Below, one piece after another: positions 15,602 through 60,247 of a stretch of DNA of 64,000 nt. The translations under genes and the position numbers were made by a program. The notes below the pieces were generated by a model. The model saw nothing but the letters and a program-made list of their open reading frames with translations. It made no database searches and was not told the origin of the DNA. Location of the stretch: the NCBI GenBank assembly GCA_027013165.1, contig JALUXV010000226.1, forward strand, positions 1 to 64,000. Reading direction: 5' to 3'. Within the stretch, counting starts at the first letter, position 1. Each line of letters opens with the position of its first letter. Origin of the DNA: Alteromonadaceae bacterium (GTDB lineage Bacteria > Pseudomonadota > Gammaproteobacteria > Enterobacterales > Alteromonadaceae).

Positions 15602-15785
15602 AATGCCAACTCTGGGAAGGTTAACGGGTAGTGCAAGCCTTTTGAGAGGGAACGGTGTACTTTTTATAGCACGCCAGTTCCATCCGTGGGGCTCAGCTTC
15701 GGCAAACTTGCCTCAGATGGCTATAAAAGTACGCCGCTCCCTCTCTAGAATGCCTTAAACAATGTTTGCTTAACTGACTAGCATT
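15602..15785 (+). repeat. Palindromic MITE-like element, copy A (184 bp)
   Basis: An imperfect inverted repeat with long arms: 15644-15670 (GAGAGGG...ACTTTTTATAGC) pairs with 15720-15745, and the ends carry AATGCC (15602) and TTAACTGACTAGCATT (15770-15785). The centre holds GGGGCTCAGCTTCGGCA followed by CTTGCCTCAG, a core shared with the copy at 24551 and, more loosely and inverted, at 43935. Size equals copy C (185 bp). No flanking duplication is seen here, so this copy is probably old. It contains no gene. Confidence 0.75.
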
Positions 15786-16380
15786 TCGCTTGAGCGTCCT
15801 CTTAGCGCTATACCAGCTGAAAATGCCACTAAATCTGTCCATTGAAAACCAACCCCAAGCACTAAACCGCCTAGCCTAGTATGACGAATATTATTAATCC
15901 AATTCGCCTGTCAGAGCTGAGAGGCTTCAATTGAGAACGAAACAGTAAGGCAACAATGGCGCATATCCAGTGGCTTTTGTGGGGCACAAAAAATCGTATC
16001 AACCAATATACAATTGATGTCCACAGCTAGTAGCCCACGTACATCGCAATGGAATGATAATACTCAAACACGCTAGAGCGAGTAAAAAGGCCAAGCAAAA
16101 CAGTGCCACGTGCTAACAAAGCATAGGTGATTCGGGAGCGATAAATCATGGAGTGTCTAACTCTATGTTATCCAGTTATTGGGCGTTTACACCAATGTGT
16201 TGGTTTATCCATTCGGCAAAATGAGGTAATTAATTTGTAGACCTTAACTCTAGTTATTATTCTTGTATCAAACACTATGAACTTAGCGTTATTGTTTATG
16301 CAGTGCAATTCACTCGCTCTATAATCAGTGTAATGTGTTATTTTTAATAATTCTATATAAAGCAATGGCTTACTATGGGT
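15786..16380. other. Gene-free accessory stretch
   Basis: About 600 bases between the palindromic element and the upstream region of the HTH gene. Only short open frames are present, none with a recognisable product or ribosome site. No tRNA, terminator or transposase fragment was recognised. The stretch is AT-rich near its right end (16230-16380), where the promoter of the next gene may begin. Confidence 0.5.
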
Positions 16381-16413
16381 TGACGTAACGTGACGTAATA
16401 CTGTCGTAGTATT
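16381..16413. promoter_or_regulatory. Operator-like repeats upstream of the HTH-DUF4019 gene
   Basis: TGACGTAA occurs twice in direct orientation with a 10-base period (16381-16388, 16391-16398), i.e. on the same face of the helix, followed by a perfect inverted repeat AATACT-GTCGT-AGTATT (16397-16413). The group ends 54 bases before the ATG of an HTH protein, so autoregulation is a reasonable guess. The repeats are seen; their function is inferred. Confidence 0.45.
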
Positions 16414-16467
16414 TAGACGTTTTGTTTAACACACTCCTCACCAAATTATTGAGATGAGGATAAGGCA

Positions 16468-17175
16468 ATGGAAATGAAAATTAACTCAGCGCTTATTGTT
16501 GAGTTGCGAAGCGCAAAAGCTTGGAGTCAGCAGCATCTAGCGGATGTAGCAGGGCTAAGTTTACGAACGGTCCAGCGTGTTGAAAATACCAGTAGTGCAT
16601 CGCATGACTCAGTAAAGGCGATTGCAATGGCATTTGATAAAGTGCCCGCAGATTTGGCAGTGCAGAGCGAGTCAGAGCAGTCAGATTCACCCGAACATCA
16701 AAGCTGGCCTAATCACAAATTTCGGACGATTGGAGCAGGGGTGTTGACCGTTATTGCATTAGTAGCGGCGGCCTATAGTTATGCGTATTTTGCCAAAGAC
16801 AATGCCTCAACCGAAACGGGCACCTACACTGTTTCGATAGATGCCGTTGAGCAAGCGGCTATTAGTTGGTTAGCGCTTATTGATGCTCAAGAGTATGACA
16901 TTAGCTGGGACCGCCTAGGTAAACTGGCTAAAGCGAGAGTGACTGAGCGTCAATGGTCTGAGGCACTAACCCAGAGCAAAAGTATTTTTGGAGAAGTGAA
17001 TTCACGAGAACTACGTGGCGTTGATACCTCTGGAGCAATGATCGGGTTACCTCAGGGCGAATACGCTACCCTTACCTTTTCTTCGTCTATGGAAAAAAGG
17101 CCGATAGCTACCGAAATTATCACTATGAGTAAAGAAAGTGGCCAGTGGGTGGTGATTGGATACTTTATTCAGTAA
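16468..17175 (+). CDS. Membrane-anchored XRE-type HTH protein with periplasmic DUF4019 domain
   Basis: The 235-residue protein has an N-terminal XRE/Cro-type helix-turn-helix (about 8-62, with WSQQHLADVAGLSLRTVQRVEN), an acidic linker, one hydrophobic segment (about 87-109) and a C-terminal region (about 121-234, beginning EQAAISWLALIDAQEYDISW) that I recognise as DUF4019. The topology puts the DNA-binding domain in the cytoplasm and DUF4019 in the periplasm, the layout of one-component membrane regulators such as ToxR/CadC, although the HTH class differs. The first ATG has a GAGG site 8 bases upstream; the second, at 16474, is possible. Flanking palindromic element and transposase stump mark an accessory insertion between mutT and yacG. 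The signal and targets are unknown. Confidence 0.85.
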   Translation: MEMKINSALIVELRSAKAWSQQHLADVAGLSLRTVQRVENTSSASHDSVKAIAMAFDKVPADLAVQSESEQSDSPEHQSWPNHKFRTIGAGVLTVIALVAAAYSYAYFAKDNASTETGTYTVSIDAVEQAAISWLALIDAQEYDISWDRLGKLAKARVTERQWSEALTQSKSIFGEVNSRELRGVDTSGAMIGLPQGEYATLTFSSSMEKRPIATEIITMSKESGQWVVIGYFIQ

Positions 17176-17342
17176 AGCTTGTTAATTCATTTAGGTTATC
17201 AAGCACCACATGAGGTAAAACTATAATGCGTTCGTTAGTCAGTGCCATGGGGCGAGCTAAGCAAGGTTATGCAAATCATACCTCGCGCAATTTCAACAGC
17301 AATAGTGCACAGCCAACAAAACTAAGCAGTGTGGCTAGACAA

Positions 17343-17430
17343 CCTGACGAAAGACCGAGAAAAACGTTAGGCTATGAAACACCAGCAAAGAAATTTAACT
17401 GATGTGTTGCGTCTATCGATTGAACTCAAG
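17343..17430 (+). pseudogene. IS30-family transposase remnant (3' end)
   Basis: Bases 17343-17402 read P-D-E-R-P-R-K-T-L-G-Y-E-T-P-A-K-K-F-N-stop. This is the highly typical C-terminus of IS30-family transposases (N-x-R-P-R-K-x-L-G-Y-x-T-P). The following GATGTGTTGCGTCTATCGAT and TTGAACTC resemble the right end of such elements (stop, then xTGTTGCxxxT...TTGAA). The rest of the transposase is gone: no upstream frame matches. The remnant lies tail-to-tail with the aspartoacylase-like gene and marks past insertion in this pocket. Confidence 0.75.
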
Positions 17431-17446
17431 ACCTATAACCGATACA

Positions 17447-26605: not shown

Positions 26606-27352
26606 ATGCGTCAGCAACGCAAAAAGTTAGCAGATGTAATTACTGAACAACTAGAATCCATGATTCTTGATGGCACCCTTTTGTCTGGGCAAAAGCTGCC
26701 CCCAGAGCGAGAGCTTGCATTACAGTTTGATGTATCTCGCCCGTCACTAAGAGAAGCCATTGGTAATTTGCAAGCGCGAGGATTGGTCGAGCGTAAGCAG
26801 GGTGGTGGAACTTTCGTTAATCGAAATTTAAATTCCGCGATGCGTGACCCATTAATGGCTCTAGTGAGTAAACGTCCTGAAACTCAGTTCGATTTACTAG
26901 AGTTCAGGCACGCATTGGAGGGTATGGCAGCTTATTACGCGGCACTTCGCGGACAGCCAGAAGATTACGATGCGTTAAAACAAGCATTGAAAGATTTACC
27001 TTCACCCGGCCCAAAAGAAAGTAAGCGAGCGCAAGCCGAGGCCCTAGGGCAGTTTTACGTGATTATGGCAAGAGCCTCTCACAATATGGTGTTGCTTCAC
27101 GTAATGAATACCATGCAAAGCATGCTGGTTGAAAATATTGAGCGCAACTTAGACATGTTAGCGCTGCACACTGACGTGAGTGACGACATAGGCCGCCAGC
27201 GTCACGAAATTGTTGAAGCAATAGCGGCGCGCGACCCTGAAGCAGCGCGCCAAGCGTGTAATACGCACCTTGCTTACATTGAGAAAACACTATTAACCAT
27301 TAACCAGCGAGACAGCCGTGTACAACGAGCGCTTCGACGGTTAGAAATTTAG
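26606..27352 (+). CDS. pdhR: PdhR, pyruvate-responsive GntR-family repressor
   Basis: Repressor of the pyruvate dehydrogenase operon. The 248-residue protein has an N-terminal winged helix (about 8-75, KLPPERELALQFDVSRPSLREAIGNLQARGLVERKQGGGTFV) and a C-terminal FCD effector domain with the typical EFRHALEGMAAYYAA and RHEIVEAIAARDPEAARQ segments. It is followed by aceE, aceF and lpd and preceded by its own operator at 26511-26525. Length is near E. coli PdhR (254). Confidence 0.95.
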   Translation: MRQQRKKLADVITEQLESMILDGTLLSGQKLPPERELALQFDVSRPSLREAIGNLQARGLVERKQGGGTFVNRNLNSAMRDPLMALVSKRPETQFDLLEFRHALEGMAAYYAALRGQPEDYDALKQALKDLPSPGPKESKRAQAEALGQFYVIMARASHNMVLLHVMNTMQSMLVENIERNLDMLALHTDVSDDIGRQRHEIVEAIAARDPEAARQACNTHLAYIEKTLLTINQRDSRVQRALRRLEI

Positions 27353-46012: not shown

Positions 46013-46035
46013 TTCTTCATCCATCGAAAGAGGGC

Positions 46036-46215
46036 GTCTCCCAAAATGCCGCTGTTCATCGTTCGCCCGTGAACCGAAAAGTTCAGGGCGGAAGCATCAC
46101 GGTCACCGTAGGCTTCTCGATACGTGTCGAGCTTGCGCAATAGCATCCGTTTCAACTTCCTAAGTTTAAAGCATCGGCCAGGGACATGAGTGAACTGGCG
46201 AACATCTCAGGAGAC
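46036..46215 (-). ncRNA. ssrS: 6S RNA
   Basis: Regulatory RNA that mimics an open promoter and binds sigma-70 RNA polymerase in stationary phase. On the minus strand the 5' end GTCTCCTGAGATG (46215-46203) pairs over 13 positions, allowing G-U, with CATTTTGGGAGAC at the 3' end (46048-46036), forming the closing stem. The conserved TGTTCGCC, TGTCCCTGGCCGATGC and GAGAAGCC segments of gammaproteobacterial 6S RNA are present in order. Length of about 180 is normal (184 in E. coli). It lies upstream of ygfB in opposite orientation as in E. coli, but zapA is absent and fau is displaced. Confidence 0.9.
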
Positions 46216-46324
46216 ATAGTTACTGTGTAACACAACAGCGTAGCGCAAATCAGTAATAGGGTGAAGAAAACCCAATGATAAAACGAGGCATCTGTTGTTC
46301 TCGGCTGTCAGTGAAAATCTTATT

Positions 46325-57550: not shown

Positions 57551-60247
57551 ATGACACACAGAAGAAAACAGTTGGCAGTACTTATAGCGTTCGCTCTATC
57601 AGGTGCGTCAGCCATTGCACAAGAAAATGATACTAATTCCAGTACCCCAGATGCCAATGCTATGGAAGTGATAGAGGTGTCGGGTTTCCGAAGCTCTTTG
57701 AATAGATCACTCATGGAAAAGCGCACGTCGGTCAACAACAAGGAATCAATTGTTGCTGAGGATATCGGTAAGTTCCCTGACCTAAACATCGCAGAATCGA
57801 TTCAAAGGGTACCAGGCGTAGCTATTGGAAGAGAAGGTGGTGAAGGTCGTAATATTACCTTACGTGGTCTTGGGCCATCTTTCACTCGTACAACGCTTAA
57901 TGGTATGGAAGTTCCTGCAAGTACAGATGGTACGGATTCTGGTGGCGGTGTAAACGGTGGCCGTGGATTCGACTTTAACGTATTTGCATCTGAGTTGTTT
58001 AATCGTGTAGACATTCAAAAATCACCTGTAGCGTCTATGGAAGAAGGTGGTATCGCAGGTACGGTAGATCTCTACTCTGCTAAACCTTTTGATTACGAAG
58101 GCTTTAAATTAGTTGCCTCAGCACAAGGCGGTTATAACACCAACACCGAAGAGACAGATCCAAGAGCTGCGATTATGGTAAGTAATCAGTTTATGGATGG
58201 TACCGTAGGTGTGCTTTTCTCTGCTGCGGTTTCAGAGCGTACAGTAAGACAAGAAGGCTACGGCACTGTTCGCTGGACTACACCTGTTAGAGATGGCGGT
58301 GGTTTGTTCGCTGATACATCCAATACCGTTGTTACTGGAACCCCTGATGTAGGAGCTTGCGAAGACGATGGTCAAGCGGTAGATCCTATCAACTGTTTGT
58401 GGACACCGCGCTTACCGCGTCCTGACTATTTCGGCAACGAACAAGAACGCGTTGGTTTTACGGGTGCAATCCAATGGGCTCCAACAGACGACTTAACTAT
58501 TACGTTAGACGGTTTAGTATCAACGCTAGACAATACTCGTACTATGTATAATTTCTTCCACATGTTTAGAAGTACTTTCGATGAAATTACTCCTACAGCC
58601 ATTACGGTTCACCCCAACGGCAAGCAAGTGTTAGCAGGTACATACGAAGGAATTAAATCTCGTATAGAGAGTCGTCGCCAAGAGTCAACTACTGACTTTA
58701 GTCAATTTGTATTGTCTGGTGAGTGGTTCCCTTCTGAAAGCTTGAAGATCAATGCCATGGCTGGTACCGCAGAGTCAGATGCTCGTTCAGAGCAATATCG
58801 CTACAACATGACGCTACTGCAACCTACTACCTTTAGTTTTGACTTTAGCAACAATATTAACGCTCCTGATGTGACTTATGGTTACGATGTTAATGATGCA
58901 AGCAACTATAACCTTAGTGACGGTCGTCTTCGCGCAACTGACGTACTTCGTGAAAATGACACAGTAAAAATTGACGCTACGTACTTTGCTGACGATGTGA
59001 CTATTAGAACCGGTTTAGCGTTTAACGATAGAACCGTAACTTATAGTGAAGAGCAAATTAATGGCTTCCCTGACCAAGCGACTGCGGTAGGTTATGCTGA
59101 AATGATGCCTGTAGATGACTATGGTCACGGCTTCGATGGCAATTTGTCTCCGTTCATTGTTGCTGATTTTGACGCAATCAATGCTCAACTACTCGATGTT
59201 GTTTGGACACCGCGTACAAACCAAAGCTGGCAAGTGGGTGAAGAAACACAAGCGGCTTACATTGAGTTAGACACTAGCTACGAAATTTCCGATATGTTGC
59301 TTCGCGCAAACTATGGTGTTCGTTACGTTAAAACCACAACAACCTCTGAAGGTTTTGTTGATGGCGACGCAGTTTCTATTGAAAATGATTACAGTAACTT
59401 CCTTCCTGCGGTTAATTTAGCGCTTGAAGCTACTGATGACATTATCGTTCGTTTGGGCTTAACTCAGTCTATGACTCGTCCAAGCTTAAACTCAATGAGC
59501 CCAGGTAATCCAAGATTTGATTACATCAACGGGTCGGTTAGTGTAGGTAATCCTTTCTTAACGCCATTTACGTCAAACAACGTTGATTTTGGTGTTGAAT
59601 GGTACTTCGATGACGAAGCGTTACTTGCTGCCACCGTGTTCTACAAAGACATTGATAACTGGATTGTAAGAGCGTCTGAAGAGCGTTTGGTAGATCCAGC
59701 TTATTATGCCTTTATTGACAGCGACCCTCAGTACGATCCACAAATCGCGCTTGACCCTCGTACCGTTGCTTATGAGCACAGTAGCCCAATTAATGCTGAC
59801 GAAAGAACTATCAGCGGTTATGAGCTAATTTATCAACAGCCATTTAACTTCTTACCAGGTGCATTTAAAAACATGGGTATTGTATCTAACTATACTCACG
59901 TAAATGCCGATGAAATAGAAGGTACAAGTGAGAAGTCGTATAACTTTACTTTGTACTATGAAACAGATGTTTATGGCGCACGTGTTTCAGTTAATAAGCG
60001 TGACGATTACATCACTGACTTTACCGGAAGTAACGGTAACGTAGCTCACGGCACAACTGGGCCTACGCAGGTTGATTTCTCTTCTTTCTATAACTTTAGT
60101 GAGAATCTAACCTTTACCTTTGAAGTAATTAATGCGACCGACGAGTATGAGCGTTTGTTCACTACTGGTGATGGTTCACTCAACTTAATGCGTGAATATA
60201 ACCAAACAGGTCGACAGTTCTTCTTGGGTGCTCGTTATACCATGTAG
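57551..60247 (+). CDS. TonB-dependent receptor of the Xanthomonas/Caulobacter polysaccharide type
   Basis: Outer-membrane active transporter of 898 residues. It has a signal peptide (MTHRRKQLAVLIAFALSGASAIAQ), a plug domain (IVAEDIGKFPDLNIAESIQRVPG, then GRNITLRGLGPSF and TLNGMEVPAS) and a long C-terminal beta-barrel ending RQFFLGARYTM. The plug sequence is typical of the TIGR01782 group used for plant and algal saccharide uptake. The context predicts pectin or rhamnogalacturonan oligosaccharides. The ATG at 57551 has GGAGAG upstream; the frame is open to 57524. It is followed by a terminator, then an acetylesterase. Confidence 0.92.
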   Translation: MTHRRKQLAVLIAFALSGASAIAQENDTNSSTPDANAMEVIEVSGFRSSLNRSLMEKRTSVNNKESIVAEDIGKFPDLNIAESIQRVPGVAIGREGGEGRNITLRGLGPSFTRTTLNGMEVPASTDGTDSGGGVNGGRGFDFNVFASELFNRVDIQKSPVASMEEGGIAGTVDLYSAKPFDYEGFKLVASAQGGYNTNTEETDPRAAIMVSNQFMDGTVGVLFSAAVSERTVRQEGYGTVRWTTPVRDGGGLFADTSNTVVTGTPDVGACEDDGQAVDPINCLWTPRLPRPDYFGNEQERVGFTGAIQWAPTDDLTITLDGLVSTLDNTRTMYNFFHMFRSTFDEITPTAITVHPNGKQVLAGTYEGIKSRIESRRQESTTDFSQFVLSGEWFPSESLKINAMAGTAESDARSEQYRYNMTLLQPTTFSFDFSNNINAPDVTYGYDVNDASNYNLSDGRLRATDVLRENDTVKIDATYFADDVTIRTGLAFNDRTVTYSEEQINGFPDQATAVGYAEMMPVDDYGHGFDGNLSPFIVADFDAINAQLLDVVWTPRTNQSWQVGEETQAAYIELDTSYEISDMLLRANYGVRYVKTTTTSEGFVDGDAVSIENDYSNFLPAVNLALEATDDIIVRLGLTQSMTRPSLNSMSPGNPRFDYINGSVSVGNPFLTPFTSNNVDFGVEWYFDDEALLAATVFYKDIDNWIVRASEERLVDPAYYAFIDSDPQYDPQIALDPRTVAYEHSSPINADERTISGYELIYQQPFNFLPGAFKNMGIVSNYTHVNADEIEGTSEKSYNFTLYYETDVYGARVSVNKRDDYITDFTGSNGNVAHGTTGPTQVDFSSFYNFSENLTFTFEVINATDEYERLFTTGDGSLNLMREYNQTGRQFFLGARYTM

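Follow-up and report, generated by a model that had tools for sequence, protein, structure and literature searches.

A phased direct-repeat array in front of a predicted membrane-anchored XRE-DUF4019 regulator and its relatives

Membrane-integrated one-component regulators of the ToxR/CadC type join an N-terminal cytoplasmic DNA-binding domain, a winged helix, through one membrane helix to a C-terminal periplasmic domain. A comparable order of parts is found in RodZ, a morphology protein with an XRE-like helix-turn-helix (HTH), a membrane helix and a periplasmic domain. Lambda CI, of the Cro/C1 fold, is soluble, binds palindromic operators and activates transcription at PRM, and the Pho boxes associated with PhoB are direct TGTCAT repeats 11 bp apart. 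Here we describe a gene and its upstream region that combine features of these systems: the predicted topology resembles that of ToxR/CadC, the modeled DNA-binding fold is that of Cro/C1 proteins and the repeats are spaced as in Pho boxes.

Each likeness has its limits. The protein shares with the ToxR/CadC type the predicted succession of domains across the membrane, but carries a Cro/C1-type HTH and a DUF4019 domain where those regulators have a winged helix. It resembles RodZ in its XRE-like HTH and in its predicted single membrane helix and periplasmic domain; the periplasmic domain of RodZ is a different one, however, and the same genome holds a separate gene (L251) that we read as RodZ-like. 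As with lambda CI at PRM, a Cro/C1 fold is associated with an activator-like site beside the −35 region, although direct repeats and a membrane anchor take the place of palindromic operators and a soluble protein. Direct repeats 11 bp apart beside a promoter recall the Pho box, yet the family unit is TGTCGTA rather than TGTCAT and is found with XRE genes. A literature search whose scope left most subscription papers outside returned no paper that we recognised as describing the XRE family or its array; the parts of PMC12131743, PMC11628618 and PMC11237479 that it covered describe neither, and a single paper among those covered, PMC12440251, mentions DUF4019.

Domain layout and genomic setting of the regulator gene

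The window, as we call the whole 64,000-nucleotide stretch of DNA analyzed here, contains an open reading frame at 16468-17175 on the plus strand that encodes a protein of 235 residues. Its N-terminal part (16468..16665, plus strand) is a putative cytoplasmic XRE/Cro-type HTH domain, matched by HTH_3 (PF01381) at residues 12-60 with E = 7.4e-4 and a score of 19.9-22.4 bits, below the Pfam cut-off of 23; relatives score higher, for example 35.4 bits for L011. The Pfam matches at the N-terminus are HTH_3 and HTH_31, and no winged-helix domain is among them. Residues R33, T34, Q36, R37 and E39 of the recognition helix are invariant in 23 aligned members. An AlphaFold2 model of the protein (39 sequences in the alignment; mean pLDDT 88.5, above 90 across residues 1-60) consists of an essentially helical N-terminal domain, a helix at residues 89-111 and an alpha-plus-beta C-terminal domain. 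In Foldseek searches, the HTH matched 434 Cro and C.AhdI at E = 6.4e-3 and 6.8e-3, and the TM scores of the predicted model, by target length, were 0.76 to 2cro and 0.77 to 1y7y, as for a Cro/C1-type fold. This assignment rests on the Foldseek list because the VIA-align rows are dominated by residues 120-235.

Hydropathy analysis finds a single hydrophobic stretch, starting at residue 88, and taken together with the modeled helix at residues 89-111 (16732..16800, plus strand) it predicts a cytoplasmic HTH, one membrane helix and a periplasmic C-terminus. The C-terminal domain (16855..17163, plus strand) matches DUF4019 (PF13211) at residues 130-232 with E = 7.6e-24 and 84.6 bits, exceeding the Pfam cut-off of 26.5. 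When residues 120-234 of the predicted model were compared with VIA-align, the DUF3887 protein 4hyz matched with Z = 12.9 (2.1 Å over 106 residues) and the N-terminal NTF2-like parts of PBP5 and PBP2a with Z = 10.4-11.7; as modeled, the DUF4019 domain has an NTF2-like fold, matched over the whole domain. The fold is shared with these proteins, but identity to the DUF4019 domain is 8-11% in the rows quoted, and we know of no HTH in any of the three. In related genomes, most DUF4019 proteins that stand alone have a hydrophobic, signal-peptide-like N-terminus, which fits a periplasmic location, and from these N-termini and the topology the DUF4019 domain of the window protein is probably periplasmic too. 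In an NCBIfam scan of six proteins, five of them of this kind or with DUF4019, no model matched above its cut-off.

An earlier note on this DNA had read the gene as a membrane-anchored one-component regulator (XRE, TM, DUF4019) with an operator-like upstream region, which the domain layout and the array described below support; it had also considered the layout unusual, and here the gene turns out to have company. Open XRE-TM-DUF4019 fusions occur in 7 of 59 genomes of the same genus, with one more, in G012, broken, and the HTH is also carried by proteins with other C-termini. DUF4019 matches were present in 19 of the 59 genomes, in 11 of them as a separate protein (the copy in G049 has an internal stop). 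A single-sequence scan of the genome contigs returned no relative; an alignment scan returned 7 loci. The six other fusions share one site, which we recognise as the interval between genes taken to be rapA and phoH, unlike the window gene with its place between mutT and astE. At three of the six (L069, L071 and L072), and likewise at L073, one or two further genes separate rapA from phoH. At the same site, G029 has an array without a gene (L196) and G012 an array with the broken fusion (L188). Transfer from the rapA-phoH site of the gene's own genome was considered and rejected, as no HTH gene lies between these genes in G000 or G040.

The window gene is part of a 1.6-kb mosaic insert (15797..17432) between mutT and astE. 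In G040, the nearest relative as judged by YacG (89% identity), this insert is missing and some 110 unmatched bases stand at the corresponding place. Genome comparison identified three further pieces around the regulator: a copy, with broken frame, of the gene for a 130-residue hydrophobic protein (15806..16174, minus strand; 84% identical to C375), presumably DUF2809-like, whose open counterpart lies at another place in the genome; a 3'-terminal gene fragment (17177..17248, minus strand; 88% identical to C558) from what we take to be a HAD-like hydrolase gene; and the C-terminal stump of an IS30-type transposase (17283..17399, plus strand). The last, already named in the earlier note, is real and short, covering residues 20-58 of an ORF at 17226-17402, and shares 64-67% identity with the C-termini of three plasmid-borne Alteromonas transposases, two of which are annotated as IS30. 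The order secA-mutT-astE-yacG-zapD-coaE-pilD is kept in four of five longer regions, with mutT, astE and yacG identified by Pfam and the other four names being our assumption. The proposed mobile pocket in a mutT-yacG junction is thus an insertion indeed, placed more exactly between mutT and astE, with astE separating it from yacG. A palindromic element said to flank the gene also exists (15603-15770, arms 15644-15664/15725-15745), and 8 further loci in the same genome show matches to parts of it. G040 has it at the same place, so the element predates the insert, and we rejected it as part of the regulator unit. Elsewhere in the window, the sole Rfam match at gathering score is a 6S RNA at 46034-46216 on the minus strand.

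Such surroundings raise the question of whether the window copy still has a function or is a passenger decaying within a mobile scar. The gene sits among broken pieces of others and is missing at this place in G040, and the rapA-phoH site holds a broken fusion in G012 and a geneless array in G029; however, the frame is open, the HTH residues that are invariant in the family are present and the array has the highest score in the family, and we regard this reading as improbable.

The array is linked to the HTH, not to DUF4019

Upstream of the gene lies an operator-like array of three direct units (16381..16408, plus strand), TGACGTA at 16381-16387, TGACGTA at 16391-16397 and TGTCGTA at 16402-16408, with spacings of 10 and 11 bp. 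It scores 28.9, whereas none of 200 shuffles of this upstream region exceeds 12.9. When all 59 genes of the HTH family were scored with a model trained on the family's own promoters, this array ranked highest. Two phased TGACGTAA repeats noted earlier in this region are present, at 16381-16388 and 16391-16398, and make up only part of the signal, the consensus unit being TGTCGTA and a third unit starting at 16402. By itself TGACGTAA is only mildly enriched, with 6 copies in 64 kb against 2.3 expected and at least as many in 3 of 100 shuffles; since single copies turn up across the window and TGTCGTA-like units fit the family better, we rejected it as the repeat unit. An AATACT/AGTATT inverted repeat, also noted earlier, is exact in the window (arms at 16397-16402/16408-16413), but its arms match at only 2/6 positions in each of six orthologues and, among 41 arrays tested, no other reaches a 5/6 arm match, and it was rejected as an operator because it is not conserved in orthologues. 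What orthologues do keep, in the comparison that the earlier note had suggested, is the repeats, in the form of an 11-bp-phased TGTCGTA array. Promoter and terminator scans of the window stayed at chance level. High array scores also occur in the window inside coding DNA, at 27209 and 63987 on the minus strand, and position 58918 on the plus strand scores 14.3.

To place this array among its relatives, we assembled 59 genes with this HTH from matches in the genus. By hydropathy, 57 of the encoded proteins have at least one membrane segment, and their C-terminal parts differ, comprising DUF4019, 2TM, DUF4177, unassigned sequence or a membrane helix alone. The array recurs across these subfamilies; it is not tied to membrane anchoring as such, since two of the 59 proteins, L153 and L179, have no hydrophobic helix. 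TGTCGTA-like units are common to the upstream regions, and in 33 representatives two units stand at a distance of 11 bp in 31 cases (200 shuffles averaged 1.3 and reached at most 5), at 22 bp in 18 (at most 5 in shuffles) and at 33 bp in 10 (at most 8 in shuffles). The unit keeps T, G, C and mostly G, with G at position 5 in 76-78% of family units. Near the gene start, 41 of 59 genes have an array score of at least 14.4, of which 35 exceed all of 390 shuffles, and the other 18 score at most 7.5. The first array model was trained on the promoters that it scores; after retraining on 36 representatives without the DUF4019 members, the window gene scored 28.9 and its six orthologues 22.8-28.0 (0/200 shuffles each, the closest shuffle reaching 21.8 against 22.8 for L070), while 202 other ORF upstreams scored at most 12.4.

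Of the 18 genes with no array near their start, 16 stand behind an ORF on the same strand whose end lies no more than 12 nt away. For 10 of the 18, several of which are close relatives of each other, an array lies 490-694 nt upstream, before the preceding gene (at most 2/200 shuffles each). Two of these ten are weak, L178 scoring higher on the opposite strand and L180 in the reversed-sequence control, and the remaining 8 have no array upstream either. Ten loci (L152, L155, L160, L164, L169, L175-L178 and L180) encode short XRE proteins of 98-108 residues, each gene following a separate ORF that ends within 12 nt and has the array in front of it; the first-gene proteins gave no Pfam match in the two scanned (L152 and L176). 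At the other end of the size range, L207 encodes an XRE-DUF4870-beta-lactamase-like protein of 482 residues, and its gene, too, has the array immediately in front.

Our searches covered all 59 genomes of the genus, and the order and class as samples of 295 and 369 genomes. In the class sample outside the genus, 13 loci were found and 12 evaluated (L224, which had no matching ORF, was left out), and 10 of the 12 carry the array (0/100 shuffles each), three of these belonging to another genus of the same family. On three named contigs, L216 and L217 carry it as well (0/200 shuffles), and L218 has an array scoring 30.3, with no shuffles of its own, that is separated from its gene by an IS-like insertion. 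Outside the genus, 13 of 15 evaluated relatives thus have the array, once beyond an IS-like insertion, and the two in which we found none, L226 and L232, both encode 104-residue proteins. By contrast, 19 separate (secreted) DUF4019 genes evaluated out of 21 (L017 and L037, which had no ORF, were left out) all lacked the array, with a best score of 7.9. The array is linked to the HTH and not to DUF4019. In the gene's own genome, three of the 16 HTH_3 places have the R-T-x-Q-R helix and two of these have an array (28.9 and 17.6); of the 13 places without that helix, one (L247) reaches 17.2 with a site that falls in the coding sequence of the gene before it, and the rest score at most 5.4, a neighbouring ORF having apparently been taken for L239 and L244.

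A search of the 59 genomes for the three-unit pattern with at most three mismatches gave 40 places, against 34 in a reversed control. Twenty-four of them are family promoters, including those of the broken fusion in G012, the geneless array in G029 and the XRE-DUF4870-beta-lactamase-like gene in G053, and 16 are non-family. Away from family promoters there was no excess over the control in these genomes, and at this stringency the search shows no wider regulon; because the pattern passes over the 10-bp spacing found in the window as well as many degenerate arrays, a regulon of weaker sites may lie beyond it. Fifteen of the 16 non-family places were inspected (G021:C1:1846459 was left out), among which L187 precedes a sigma-factor-like gene and L197 resembles a Pho box. 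Two genomes have a similar three-unit site (L183 and L194), presumably between a sugar-kinase-like and a ROK-like gene, which may be another target or chance.

These data also bear on whether a response regulator of the OmpR/PhoB type binds the array, with the XRE genes merely among its targets. Pho boxes share the 11-bp direct-repeat geometry, position 5 is A in some arrays of the family, and the array model gives 14.2 for the phoB promoter in both G000 and G040. We used phoB promoters as the Pho-box control because pstS follows phoR; pstS upstreams, which score 0.9-5.6, are uninformative in this role. As three other phoB promoters (G042, G025 and G021) score just 9.1, 4.0 and 3.4, the five values together mean that geometry alone does not decide against PhoB. 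The sequence and distribution of the units argue against it: G prevails at position 5, the array goes with HTH genes, lying in several cases before the gene that precedes them, and no genome-wide excess is seen elsewhere, the 16 non-family places of 40 comparing with 34 in the control. We judge control by a PhoB-type regulator very unlikely.

Promoter geometry and a model of autoregulation

The position of the array relative to the promoter carries information on the direction of control. In 12 of 29 promoters, the distance from the first base of the last unit to that of a TAnnnT motif is 28 or 29 bp, which 0/500 shuffles matched, the best pair of offsets averaging 4.4 in the 500 shuffles. With TAnnnT taken as the −10 box, the last unit would span roughly −40 to −34, a stretch from which a bound activator can contact the sigma factor. 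At the 28-29 bp offset, the promoter of the window gene lacks a −10-like box, and a sigma-70 scan found none there on the gene's strand.

Overall, we consider it likely that the window gene encodes a membrane-anchored one-component regulator that controls its own promoter, with the XRE domain binding the array and DUF4019 as the likely input. The N-terminal XRE domain would face the cytoplasm and bind the three direct repeats of consensus TGTCGTA; since the repeats are about one turn apart, we infer one monomer per repeat along one face of the DNA helix. The membrane helix would tie the XRE domain to the inner membrane, and the periplasmic, NTF2-like DUF4019 domain would be the probable input, modulating binding. 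In many relatives the last repeat would abut the −35 position before a −10-like box, from where bound protein would most probably recruit RNA polymerase, with positive autoregulation as the outcome; repression by occlusion would be the alternative.

That alternative has the regulator binding the array and repressing its own promoter, for homeostasis rather than self-activation. Autorepression is common among XRE proteins, and the XRE-2TM genes (L145-L151 and L028) have a TTGACA-like hexamer ahead of the array; the units would then lie over the spacer and the −10 region, an arrangement that would point rather to repression in these genes. However, in 12 of the 29 promoters the last unit stands at a fixed distance before the −10-like box, in an activator's place. 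We therefore favour positive autoregulation, and the regulator is probably self-activating; repression is a possibility that we hold to be the less likely of the two.

The conserved arrays suggest that the membrane proteins of this family regulate their own synthesis. Tentatively, one could go further and picture these as a widespread family of self-dedicated membrane proteins, built from one conserved XRE module, its 11-bp operator code and interchangeable membrane or periplasmic parts (DUF4019, 2TM, DUF4870 plus beta-lactamase-like and others), which would switch their own gene, as the main and perhaps only target, by lambda-CI-like positive feedback and might read their own insertion or the state of the envelope. 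In either case, a conserved recognition helix is coupled to a conserved and easily tested operator in proteins of Gammaproteobacteria that carry envelope domains, and if autoregulation holds, each array would be a ready reporter for what the fused domain senses, DUF4019 included. L218 offers a natural test of control by the array, as an IS-like element (L218:938-2672), which we take to be of the IS3 type, lies between its array and the XRE gene.
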